From the NCBI GenBank assembly GCA_021827745.1, contig JAKAUI010000060.1, positions 5,442-50,608 of the forward strand: 45,167 bases of DNA. Direction: 5' to 3'. Below are positions 7,968 to 15,592 of the stretch, piece after piece. Below the pieces are notes generated by a model that was not told the origin of the DNA, did no database searches, and saw only the letters and a program-made list of their open reading frames with translations. A program made the translations under genes and the position numbers. The stretch comes from Bacillota bacterium. GTDB taxonomy: Bacteria > Bacillota > Sulfobacillia > JAJZYS01 > JAJZLH01. Every line of letters starts with the position of its first letter. The stretch's first letter is position 1.

Positions 7968-8041
7968 GGTGCGGCCTCCTCAGACTCGGACCCGGCTACT
8001 TAGACACAAAACGGCGACGTCCTGCCGACCTGAAAAGAGGG

Positions 8042-8078
8042 TTGACGGAGTATTGATCAACTTTTCTTGTTGTATTAT
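8042..8078 (+). promoter_or_regulatory. Candidate promoter and ArsR-type operator
   Basis: AT-rich island in the 156-base gap between imuB and the cysteine-rich gene. It holds a TTGATCAA palindrome (8053-8060), nested in an imperfect GTTGA...TCAAC repeat (8041-8061), and a TATTAT box (8073-8078). Palindromes of the TCAA/TTGA kind are common ArsR/SmtB operators, and an ArsR-type gene lies just downstream. The assignment is inference. Confidence 0.4.
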
Positions 8079-8123
8079 CTTGGGTCCAGGTTGAGGTCTT
8101 TATCAGGAAGGAGGTTCGGGAGA

Positions 8124-8255
8124 ATGGACCAAGCCCAGAAGGATCCCTGCTGTTGCTGCTGCTGCGGCAAGAAGATGGGATCGGCCGAGGATGCAGCGTC
8201 GTCTGGGGACACCAACCAGGCCCCTTCGGAGTGCTGCTCCGACTGCTGCGACTGA
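8124..8255 (+). CDS. Small cysteine-rich protein with a hexacysteine run
   Basis: A 43-residue acidic protein with ten cysteines. Six are consecutive (residues 9-14, DPCCCCCCGKK) and four form two pairs in the C-terminal ECCSDCCD. There is no hydrophobic segment, so it should be cytosolic. Such density suggests thiolate metal binding, like a metallothionein or small metal carrier, but I recognise no family. The ATG follows GGAAGGAGG (about 9 bases); an upstream start at 8067 would be AT-rich leader sequence. It has its own candidate promoter and a clear intrinsic terminator, and converges with an ArsR-type regulator that itself carries two CC pairs. A role in sequestering arsenic, copper or a similar soft metal is inference. 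Confidence 0.75.
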   Translation: MDQAQKDPCCCCCCGKKMGSAEDAASSGDTNQAPSECCSDCCD

Positions 8256-8270
8256 TTCGGGTTTAAGGGC

Positions 8271-8309
8271 AGGGCGGGCTGAGATCGGCTCTCGGCCCGC
8301 CCTCTTTTT
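8271..8309 (+). terminator. Intrinsic terminator of the cysteine-rich gene
   Basis: A nine-base-pair stem AGGGCGGGC (8271-8279) / GCCCGCCCT (8295-8303) is followed by C and five T residues. It lies 15 bases after the stop of the cysteine-rich gene. Its T-run overlaps the stop codon of the convergent ArsR gene. Confidence 0.85.
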
Positions 8310-8643
8310 ACCCTTGGCCAGTGCTCGGCTGCCGGGCCATGGCCCGGATCGCATCGGCGAATCCGGCGAGCTGACCGAGCACCGCCTGGTAGTAGTTCCA
8401 GCGGCCCCGTCTCGTCTCCACGATCAACCCGGCCTCCTTCAGTTCCCGAAGGTGATAGGAGACCTTGGACTGGATCATGCCCAACTGCGAGACGATGTCG
8501 CAGACGCAGACGGCATCCGGGCAGCAGTCGTCAGCCGGGCTGCAGCAGCTGCCTGACCGGCCGGCCAGGATGATCTCGAAGATCACAAGCCTGGTTGGGT
8601 CGCCAAGGGCCTTTGCCACTACGGACAGCTCTGGCGCTGCCAT
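8308..8643 (-). CDS. ArsR/SmtB-family metal-responsive repressor
   Basis: A 111-residue winged-helix regulator. The helix-turn-helix region (VCDIVSQLGMIQSKVSYHLRELKEAGL) follows ArsR form, and WNYYQ lies in the wing. Metal-site cysteines are unusually many: Cys33-Cys34, Cys40-Cys41 and Cys46-x-Cys48, the last resembling the CVCDL motif of As(III)-sensing ArsR. ArsR proteins leave DNA on metal binding, derepressing resistance genes. The ATG at 8643 lies behind GAGGGG; an in-frame upstream start is less well placed. Its likely target is the cysteine-rich gene, whose upstream region holds a TTGATCAA palindrome; regulation of the downstream Fe-S operon is also possible. Confidence 0.9.
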   Translation of the reverse strand: MAAPELSVVAKALGDPTRLVIFEIILAGRSGSCCSPADDCCPDAVCVCDIVSQLGMIQSKVSYHLRELKEAGLIVETRRGRWNYYQAVLGQLAGFADAIRAMARQPSTGQG

Positions 8644-8719
8644 CACTGTCCCCTCCTCTCCTGATGTGCGCTTTTCCGCCAAATGTTGCGCTGGCCCTGG
8701 GTCGAGGGCTTGCACCAGC

Positions 8720-8733
8720 GGGACTTTAGTCCC
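8720..8733. promoter_or_regulatory. DosR-type box upstream of the Fe-S/two-component operon
   Basis: Perfect palindrome GGGACTTTAGTCCC, identical to the core of the mycobacterial DosR (DevR) consensus GGGACTWWAGTCCC. It is centred about 94 bases before the preferred GTG of the NapH-like gene. The same 14 bases occur at 15579-15592 before another operon, and a DosR-like regulator is encoded in the operon behind this copy. Confidence 0.8.
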
Positions 8734-8820
8734 TGTTCACCGGCGGACAAGACGGGACCTTTCGCACTTTCGGCGTCCTCTCGAGCGGCCTACCGTTGGC
8801 AGCGGAAGGTGGGATCGACA

Positions 8821-12288: not shown

Positions 12289-13695
12289 GTGCACCGACTC
12301 CGATCCCTGATCCAAGGCGGCTTCTGGCGGTGGCTTGCGGCGGCGGTGGTGGTTGCCATCGAGCTGGCGGTCGGGCTGACCCTGGCGCCGTTCGCTCCCC
12401 TGGCCTGGCAGCGAGACCTGCTCTATCTGGGCACGGCTCTCGCTGCCATCTTCGTCTTCGTGGCCTTCTCGCAGTTGGGGCTGCTCTGGGTCAGGGCCAC
12501 CGCCCAGGCGGAAGAGGCCGAGAGATTGCGCAAGGAGGCGGACCGCCGCCGGGCGCTTCTTGAGACGCTGCACGAGGCAGCGGTCGCCGTGCGCTCCAAG
12601 GAGGCCTATCCCGACGTGCTGCGCCAGATCGTGGCGCTGGCCGTGCGTCTGGCCGGCGCCAGCTACGGGGCGCTCTCCGAGTTCGATGACGAGGAACAGG
12701 TAGTCAACTTCGTCACGGTCGGGGTCCCGGACGACATCCGCGAGCGGATCGGCCTGCCGCCCAGCCATCGCGGGCTCTTGCGCCGGCTGTCCGTCGACGA
12801 GCGGCCGCTTCGCCTGTCCAATGTCCAGGTTGAGCCGGACTTCAGCGGCTTTCCCAACGAGCACCCGCACTTTCGCACCTTTTTGGGCGTCCCGCTCTAC
12901 TGGCAGGGCGAGCTGGTCGGTCACCTCTACCTCGGTGGCCACCACGGGGAGGAGCCGTTTACGGCCGAAGAAGAGCAGCTATTGGAGATGTTCGGCATGC
13001 ACGCCGCCGCCGCCATCGCCCGGGCCAGGCTATTGCGGGACCAGGCCACGGTGGTGCGGGCCGCAGAGCGGCGGGAGATCGCCATGGAGCTCCATGACGG
13101 AGCCCTGCAGACCCTGTACGCCGTCGGCATCCAGCTGGACAGAAGCCGCCGCCGACAGCTGGCGTCCGTCCCGGATCCCGGTTCGCTGGATCTGGTCTTA
13201 GAGGCGGTGCAGCAGGCGATGGACGCCATCCGCCGCGTGCTGGACGACCTCGACCAGACCCCTGCCCCGGCCGTTGTCGACCAACTCAGACTGGCGACTC
13301 AGCAGATGGCAGAGCTCTACGGCATCAACCTCACCTGGAAGGGATTGGCCCTGGCCAGGGAGATGCCGGCCGGCTGGGCGACCGATCTGTCCATGCTGAT
13401 CGCCGAGGCGGTCTCCAACGCCGGCCGGCACGGCCGCGCCACAGACGTCCTGGTCTGCTTGGAGCGTGACGACGACTGCATCCGGTTGACCGTGGACGAC
13501 AATGGGGTCGGACTCCCCGAGGCAACCGGAGACATGGCTGGAGTCGGGCGCGGTCTCGACAACCTGTCCCGCCGGGCGCAGCGCCTGGGCGGGAGCGCCA
13601 TCCTCCTCCCCCGACCAGAGGGGGGTGCCCGGGTGGCGGTCGAACTCCCCTACGCCCCGCCCCTGCCCCATCCTGACCAGGAGGCGACACGATGA
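12289..13695 (+). CDS. GAF-domain sensor histidine kinase, DosS/DosT-like
   Basis: A 468-residue kinase: two N-terminal membrane helices (about 10-65), a short coiled linker, one GAF domain (about 85-250), a HisKA_3 dimerisation helix with phosphoacceptor His269 in ELHDG, and an ATPase domain (N box NAGRHG with Asn377; G box DDNGVGL). The GAF segment FPNEHPHFRTFLGVP closely resembles the heme-binding GAF-A of mycobacterial DosS/DosT, and His192 aligns with the histidine pair that, from memory, includes the heme ligand His149 of DosS. Unlike DosS it has one GAF and is membrane anchored. The GTG lies seven bases after GGAGG. Its stop overlaps the response regulator start as ATGA. Heme, NO, O2 or redox sensing is inference. 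Confidence 0.9.
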   Translation: MHRLRSLIQGGFWRWLAAAVVVAIELAVGLTLAPFAPLAWQRDLLYLGTALAAIFVFVAFSQLGLLWVRATAQAEEAERLRKEADRRRALLETLHEAAVAVRSKEAYPDVLRQIVALAVRLAGASYGALSEFDDEEQVVNFVTVGVPDDIRERIGLPPSHRGLLRRLSVDERPLRLSNVQVEPDFSGFPNEHPHFRTFLGVPLYWQGELVGHLYLGGHHGEEPFTAEEEQLLEMFGMHAAAAIARARLLRDQATVVRAAERREIAMELHDGALQTLYAVGIQLDRSRRRQLASVPDPGSLDLVLEAVQQAMDAIRRVLDDLDQTPAPAVVDQLRLATQQMAELYGINLTWKGLALAREMPAGWATDLSMLIAEAVSNAGRHGRATDVLVCLERDDDCIRLTVDDNGVGLPEATGDMAGVGRGLDNLSRRAQRLGGSAILLPRPEGGARVAVELPYAPPLPHPDQEATR

Positions 13696-14345
13696 GTGTG
13701 TCCATCGTCATCGTCGACGACCACGCCGTGGTCCGGGTCGGACTGGCCACCGTATTGGCCGACCGGCCGGACTTTGAGGTCAAGGCGTCTGTCGGCACGG
13801 CCGAAGAGGCCGTAGCCGCGGTTGGCCTGCACCGGCCCGACGTGCTGGTGCTCGACCTGCGCCTGCCCGACCGTCCGGGCACCGCGATCGTTCCGGACGT
13901 GCGAAAGGCGTCCCCGACCACGCGCATCCTGGTCCTCACCTCCTACGGCGAGGATCGGGCGGTGGTGGAGGCGGTGGCCGCAGGCGTGGACGGCTTTTTG
14001 GTCAAGTCGGCGGACAGCGGGCGGCTGATCGCAGCCATCGACGACCTGATGGCTGGCCGCCCGATGCTGGGCGAGCAGGTCGCAGACGCACTGGTCCGCC
14101 ACCTGCAGGCTCCCAAGGACAGCGACCCGGCAGTGGCGCTGGCCGACCAGCTGACCCGACGCGAGATGGAGGTCGTGATGGCGGTCAGCCGTGGCCTTTC
14201 CAACCGCGAGATCGGCGAGCAGCTCGGGCTGTCTGAAAAGACGGTCAAAAACCACATCAGCGACATCCTGAGTAAGCTGGGGCTGGCCCGGCGGGCTCAG
14301 ATCGTCGTCTTGGTCCATGAGCAGGCTCAGCGCTATCGCAGCTAG
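13692..14345 (+). CDS. DosR/DevR-like response regulator (REC-LuxR HTH)
   Basis: A 217-residue NarL/FixJ-type regulator. The receiver domain has the acidic pair Asp9-Asp10, phosphoacceptor Asp55 in VLDLRLPD (similar to VLDVRLPD of DosR), LTSY at the switch Ser/Thr, and Lys105. The LuxR-type HTH ends in LSEKTVKNHISDILSKLG. Lys183, Lys186 and Asn187 match the DosR recognition-helix residues Lys179, Lys182 and Asn183 that contact the GGGAC half-site (numbers from memory). Both palindromes found in this window have exactly that half-site. The ATG overlaps the kinase stop by four bases, so production is coupled. The box ahead of the operon implies autoregulation. Confidence 0.92.
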   Translation: MSVSIVIVDDHAVVRVGLATVLADRPDFEVKASVGTAEEAVAAVGLHRPDVLVLDLRLPDRPGTAIVPDVRKASPTTRILVLTSYGEDRAVVEAVAAGVDGFLVKSADSGRLIAAIDDLMAGRPMLGEQVADALVRHLQAPKDSDPAVALADQLTRREMEVVMAVSRGLSNREIGEQLGLSEKTVKNHISDILSKLGLARRAQIVVLVHEQAQRYRS

Positions 14346-15578: not shown

Positions 15579-15592
15579 GGGACTTTAGTCCC
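15579..15592. promoter_or_regulatory. DosR-type box, perfect copy, upstream of diiron gene
   Basis: GGGACTTTAGTCCC, identical over all 14 bases to the copy at 8720 and preceded by TTT as in the extended consensus. It is centred about 92 bases before the GTG of the diiron gene, almost the same distance as the other copy from its gene. Confidence 0.8.

Follow-up and report, generated by a model that had tools for sequence, protein, structure and literature searches.

A Hexacysteine Micropeptide and a CC-insert ArsR as a Putative Minimal Arsenic-response Cassette in a Bacillota Genome

What is the role of a 43-residue protein rich in consecutive cysteines that is encoded beside a cysteine-rich ArsR regulator? 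The locus lies in a 45,167-nucleotide stretch of DNA (the window; GC content 66.5%) that belongs to a contig of 50.6 kb; the genome, 97% complete, comprises 1.62 Mb in 64 contigs. An earlier note had proposed that the two proteins are a pair for a single metal, one sensing and one sequestering it, and had listed As, Cu, Cd, and Zn as candidates. Comparison of sequences, on which the present analysis is based, suggests that the cassette is probably a minimal arsenic response in which a thiol peptide, induced by As(III) or organoarsenicals, would act as a buffer or chaperone beside efflux. The coordinates of the features are collected in Table 1.

Table 1. Features of the micropeptide-arsR locus (positions in the window)
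Feature	Position	Strand	Description
Present/absent cassette (operator, micropeptide gene, terminator, arsR and upstream region)	8027..8719	.	Approximate, about 8027 to 8720-8752
Putative ArsR operator	8056-8071	+	ATCAACTTTTCTTGTT; ATCAA-CTTTTC-TTGtT, one mismatch to ATCAA-N6-TTGAT
Possible -10 element TATTAT	8073-8078	+	Inferred by eye
Shine-Dalgarno AAGGAGG of micropeptide gene	8108-8114	+	From sequence; 9-nt spacing to ATG 8124
Micropeptide gene	8124-8255	+	43 aa; CCCCCC near N terminus, CCSDCC at C terminus; translation MDQAQKDPCCCCCCGKKMGSAEDAASSGDTNQAPSECCSDCCD
Intrinsic terminator of micropeptide gene	8271-8303	+	14-bp stem and U-tract, 3' of stop
arsR, ArsR/SmtB repressor	8308-8643	-	111 aa; CC(33,34)..CC(40,41)..C46-x-C48-D

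Translation of the small ORF gives the peptide described in the earlier note, with ten cysteines, six of them in a row, and the C-terminal end ECCSDCCD. Of all ORFs in a six-frame translation of the window, it alone qualifies as Cys-rich (20–90 aa, at least three CC dipeptides, and at least 12% Cys), and the folding energy of its terminator is -31.8 kcal/mol for positions 8265–8310. The rarity that had been claimed for six-Cys runs also holds beyond the window: the nucleotide pattern of six TGY codons followed by GG is present in only 4 of 154 genomes from the class, including that of the window. In two of the remaining genomes it encodes a different poly-Cys peptide beside a ThiF-like enzyme, and in the third it belongs to repeat-rich sequence. 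The micropeptide has no match up to E = 5 among the Pfam and NCBIfam models, including the metallothionein family model, and no ArsD domain was found in it with Pfam. Among the 15 genomes of the order there is no credible sequence homologue, with nothing below E = 0.04. An ORF of only 43 codons that has no homologue for a conservation test might be untranslated, and its transcript a short RNA or spurious. However, the Shine-Dalgarno sequence, the ORF, and the terminator are in perfect register, the ORF is the sole one of its kind in the window, and two independent related loci (L047 and L052, described below) share the architecture. The ribosome-binding site, the terminator, and these parallel loci make an untranslated artefact quite unlikely.

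The arsR gene is arranged tail-to-tail with the micropeptide gene across the terminator. Its product contains the segment GSCCSPADDCCPDAVCVCD (CC..CC..CVC) and scores above the curated cut-offs of PF01022 (HTH_5; 40.9 bits, cut-off 22) and NF033788 (HTH_metalloreg; 72 bits, cut-off 55), in agreement with the earlier description of an ArsR with an inserted CC...CC and a CVC. The C-x-C of this regulator, C46-V-C48-D, opens the DNA-recognition helix and is invariant across the alignment of the close clade. The observation of a hexacysteine ORF next to a CC-insert ArsR is therefore confirmed by the translation, the Shine-Dalgarno sequence, the terminator, the HTH family scores, and the uniqueness of the ORF in six frames.

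The extent of the unit is defined by two congeners, G012 and G013, which align with the window at 3.4–8.03 kb and 8.72/8.75–12.5 kb with only about 45–88 bp between, so that the present/absent block comprises just the operator, the peptide gene, the terminator, and arsR, ~0.7 kb in all. The polyferredoxin gene that flanks the cassette encodes a protein with 91–92% identity in the two congeners, and neither contains a match to the window ArsR at E ≤ 1e-8. The comparison covers three genomes (the window genome, G012, and G013), in which gain and loss are not distinguishable. Within the 0.7-kb cassette there is no arsenic enzyme or transporter, which places it outside the definition of an ars operon. 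These boundaries also bear on two other functions that might be assigned to a poly-Cys ORF. The ORF has six Cys codons in succession, with a terminator 15 nt past its stop, and could be a cysteine-responsive attenuator leader, in which ribosome stalling at these codons would control whether transcription passes the terminator into genes downstream; polycysteine leader ORFs of mycobacteria were reportedly documented by Canestrari et al. in 2020 (cited in PMC9094748). These have in common with the window ORF a run of consecutive Cys in a short ORF, but the window has no same-strand downstream gene to attenuate: the next gene on the + strand is about 0.6 kb away, and the convergent arsR comes first. 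The upstream region of the polyferredoxin operon, including a GGGACTTTAGTCCC-type box, is kept in the congeners that lack the cassette; the coding region is long and has another Cys cluster, at the C terminus; and the terminator stem (-30.8 kcal/mol) is much more stable than any other pairing of its 5' arm (-15.0 kcal/mol), and folding does not favor an antiterminator. The distance to the next + strand gene and the dominance of the terminator over other pairings make attenuation very unlikely. The peptide could also be the precursor of a thiazole- or sulfur-crosslinked RiPP that is matured by enzymes of the neighborhood, because poly-Cys precursor-like peptides are present beside ThiF-like enzymes in the same class (L042 and L043), and a radical SAM/SPASM protein and an AurF-like diiron protein are encoded 7–9 kb downstream. 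However, no ThiF/E1 or YcaO gene was seen next to the micropeptide gene, the cassette ends at arsR, and the radical SAM gene, ~8 kb away, belongs to a separate unit. The micropeptide has no leader of the L042/L043 type, its promoter contains the putative arsenic operator, and the flanking operons are present in congeners without the peptide. With no maturase in the unit, a RiPP precursor is very unlikely.

Two other features of the window and the class were observed in this context. The palindrome GGGACTTTAGTCCC, which is identical to the DosR box core of mycobacteria, has two perfect copies in the window, as compared with an expectation of 0.5 at up to one mismatch on both strands. One copy (8720–8733) is upstream of the polyferredoxin/GltD-like operon and is conserved in the congeners, and the other (15579–15592) is upstream of the AurF-like diiron and radical SAM pair; a GAF histidine kinase and a LuxR-type response regulator (12289–14345) are encoded between them, and a DosRS-like regulon is possible. 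The peptides of L042 (1479–1622, - strand) and L043 (1439–1594, - strand) are ~50 aa in length, have a leader-like N terminus (..ELNIKEIVENALKSG.. and ..DLEIKEIVESALRCG.., respectively) and 11–13 consecutive Cys, and are encoded just ahead of a ThiF-family adenylating enzyme gene; they look like a poly-Cys RiPP precursor family.

The link between the two genes of the cassette is the putative operator in the promoter of the micropeptide gene, the only site with no more than one mismatch in the 45-kb window. The core ArsR binding motif is ATCAAN6TTGAT (PMC9137774), which is also the ArsR footprint in Synechocystis, as reported in PMC4585019. Sites with up to one mismatch occurred in 9 of 5000 dinucleotide shuffles of positions 8000–8123, and shuffles of the whole window gave a mean of 0.07. 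A sigma-70 scan of the micropeptide promoter found nothing at threshold and no convincing -35 element. The promoter of arsR itself has no recognizable operator site, and autoregulation is therefore not evident. The whole genome contains six sites with one mismatch or fewer, two of them inside long ORFs, and the remainder indicate no clear further member of a regulon. A class-wide search for the operator-plus-Shine-Dalgarno pattern recovered arsR and arsM and no further micropeptide.

The regulatory context was extended to the ArsRs closest to that of the window, for which three sources were used: genomes of the class, named genomes, and an evenly sampled set of the phylum. Contigs were scanned with the alignment of the closer clade as a profile, the more diverse alignment being unsuitable, and the loci were scored for operators within 1.5 kb and for arsenic genes; duplicate loci and a group without C-x-C were left out, giving 36 distinct loci. 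A perfect ATCAA-N6-TTGAT is present in 27 of the 36. (i) Twenty-two of these 27 (22/36 overall) contain arsM, arsI, acr3, arsC, or arsP, and none of the surveyed loci that contain an arsenic gene lacks a perfect operator. (ii) The other five comprise two with CC-micropeptides (L047 and L052), two with an ArsR bearing a Cys-rich C-terminal tail (L019 and L162, from one genome), and one that is hgcAB-like (L159). ArsP was recognized in L147 and L151, and Heliophilum fasciatum has the arrangement arsR-operator-arsC-acr3, with ArsC and ACR3 confirmed by family models, and Laceyella sediminis has arsI-arsR. Family models also identify ArsI in L049 and L050 and ArsM in L020, there with ArsN2 in the same protein; in L016 the arsenite methyltransferase model is the best match to ArsM, under its cut-off. 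The best plasmid nucleotide match is to an ArsR within the annotated arsC-arsC-arsR-arsM cluster of Rubrobacter tropicus. In a tree, the window ArsR is inside an assemblage of ArsRs from arsenic operons, at a node that is not resolved. From these gene neighbors we infer that the ligands of the CC-insert ArsR clade are arsenicals. The hgcA/hgcB-like pair of L159 (57–1749), in the same phylum, encodes a CdhD-type domain with NVWCAAGK and a ferredoxin ending in CSDGSCC and follows an arsR that belongs to this clade, and the locus has a perfect operator; control of hgcAB by an arsenic-responsive ArsR is documented, according to a review (PMC10349881).

If the operator is of a type shared across the ArsR/SmtB family, the pair could sense and bind another soft metal (Cd, Zn, Cu, or Bi) in the manner of CadC- or SmtB-type regulators with metallothioneins. 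SmtB and SmtA are the classic pair of sensor and metallothionein, CadC-type sensors likewise begin their recognition helix with CxCD, and poly-Cys peptides bind many such metals. The single window ArsR sequence had no match among solved structures; an ArsR profile gave ordinary ArsR/SmtB matches, and their inclusion of CadC, SmtB, and CmtR chains would be consistent with another metal. However, the window ArsR is far below the cut-off of the NCBIfam CmtR model and of other metal-specific models, the micropeptide is not matched by the Pfam metallothionein model, and the recognized metal-related neighbors of the clade are arsenic genes and the one hgcAB-like pair, with no cadA, czcD, or copA among them. 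Another soft metal is therefore unlikely, and the metal, which the earlier note had left among four candidates, is most likely trivalent arsenic, inorganic or organic.

The ArsR of L047, from the same order, is the closest to the window ArsR (57% identical). It is convergent with a gene for a 62-aa GCGCGG..CCGGDGSCCGGDGTCC peptide, which ends in CCGGDGSCCGGDGTCC; a perfect operator is upstream, and a block of this locus, GGGTTGACG..ATCAACTTTT, is also present in the window. L052 has a divergent gene for a 27-aa peptide ending in CCGGCCGGSGGGCC and one perfect operator, together with a second operator-like site, ATCAACTTTCCTTGCT, that resembles the site in the window. In all three loci a strong terminator hairpin directly follows the micropeptide gene (75 nt; -44.6 kcal/mol in L047, -42.6 in L052, and -43.4 in the window). 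The three peptides are not clearly homologous by sequence and may be of separate origin; when the L047 micropeptide was used as the query against 398 genomes from the phylum, the single match was poor (E = 6e-4, with one in-frame stop), and no adjacent arsR was seen. CC-pair segments are also found fused to larger proteins. The ArsI of L050 carries the tail ..TCCEGSASTCCAVENVGAKDASSPCC, CC-pair tails are present on the ArsRs of L019 and L162, and the ArsR of the more distant L021 has CCCCC. Mainly because CC-pair segments recur in one and the same regulatory context, both free and fused, we regard the hexacysteine peptide as a probable arsenic ligand, and the micropeptide would be a free-standing version of the tails on ArsI and ArsR. 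The pairing of regulator and peptide for one metal can thus be retained as one functional unit, given the operator match, the arsenic neighbors of the clade, and the parallel CC-micropeptides, but the mirrored CC pairs that first suggested it prove little by themselves; the reading as an arsenic unit comes from the operator and the phylogenetic context.

Several other Cys-rich ORFs were encountered. Six further small ones in background loci look spurious. In L162, a 128-aa ORF (1025–1411, + strand) ending in NACCNACC is immediately preceded by two perfect operators and itself precedes the Cys-tailed arsR; it has no arsenic-gene match and may be another CC-tailed arsenic-regulated protein. In Couchioplanes caeruleus (L064, 4203–4409, - strand), a 68-aa GCGCG..CCG..CCD..CCN protein is encoded divergently from an ArsR without an ATCAA operator, and the next ORF has a weak match to an ArsO-type flavin monooxygenase; this protein is a possible actinobacterial counterpart of the micropeptide.

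The statement that no efflux or arsenate reductase gene is nearby is correct for the locus but, as regards efflux, not genome-wide. An acr3 gene (ACR3 arsenite efflux, 402 bits) adjoins a gene for a second, ordinary ArsR (FCGCEL) on another contig (G000 contig C37:16379-17730; L127/L128). This arsR2-acr3 operon has a different palindrome upstream, ATAAGCACATGCTTAT, and no operator of the ATCAA-N6-TTGAT type. ArsI is absent from the host genome, and no ArsM scores over the cut-off. With acr3 in the same genome, the suggestion that sequestration or metal delivery may account for the entire response finds no support at the level of the cell.

The following mechanism is proposed for the cassette. 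ArsR would repress the micropeptide gene by occupying ATCAA-N6-TTGtT in its promoter. As(III) or a trivalent organoarsenical would bind to the thiols of C46-x-C48, and perhaps also to the inserted CC/CC pairs, and the arsenical-loaded ArsR would leave the operator, allowing production of the monocistronic 43-aa peptide. The ten thiols of the peptide, in the hexacysteine block and the two CC pairs, would form three-coordinate As-S sites for trivalent arsenic, by which the peptide would buffer arsenic or hand it to the ACR3 pump encoded elsewhere.

ArsR, its operator, the type of its regulon, and metallothioneins with SmtB-type repressors are already known. The ars operons in which arsR is accompanied by arsM, arsI, acr3-arsC, or arsP have the same ArsR clade, the same operator type, and a gene behind the operator, but the window cassette would regulate only a 43-aa Cys peptide, without an enzyme or transporter. 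The vicinal-Cys C-terminal tail of ArsI (L050) and the Cys-rich N terminus of ArsM (L020 and L148) have similar CC pairs with small or polar spacers and the same operator, whereas the window peptide is free-standing, has no catalytic domain, and contains a hexacysteine block. The metallothioneins SmtA/BmtA and MymT are likewise short and Cys-dense, and SmtA is paired with an ArsR/SmtB-family repressor; the window peptide differs in having no match to the Pfam metallothioneins, in its six consecutive Cys, and in an operator and regulator that suggest arsenic, not Zn or Cu. The arsenic metallochaperone ArsD also has vicinal Cys pairs, each of which could serve as a metalloid site (PMC12607644), but the window peptide does not have the ArsD fold or domain, and no ArsA ATPase partner was observed nearby. 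A stand-alone poly-Cys micropeptide under an ArsR operator in a cassette free of enzymes and pumps was not found in the family libraries or in the open-access literature, in a limited search that covered few subscription papers. There is an even chance that ArsR-controlled stand-alone Cys-cluster micropeptides are an undescribed class of arsenic "metallothioneins" or chaperones, encoded in several Bacillota lineages by two-gene cassettes of sensor and sponge that lack an enzyme or pump and combine dissimilar peptides with the same operator. Genes of this kind, with fewer than 70 codons, are probably missing from most annotations.

Descriptions of bacterial arsenic defense deal mainly with efflux, reduction, methylation, and cleavage of C-As bonds. 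If the proposed function is correct, an arsenic-controlled thiol peptide would add dedicated intracellular buffering or chaperoning to these, and the CC tails of ArsI and ArsR may be portable arsenic-handling modules. The 43-aa peptide and the 16-bp operator would also be small, cheap, and testable parts for arsenic biosensors and capture.
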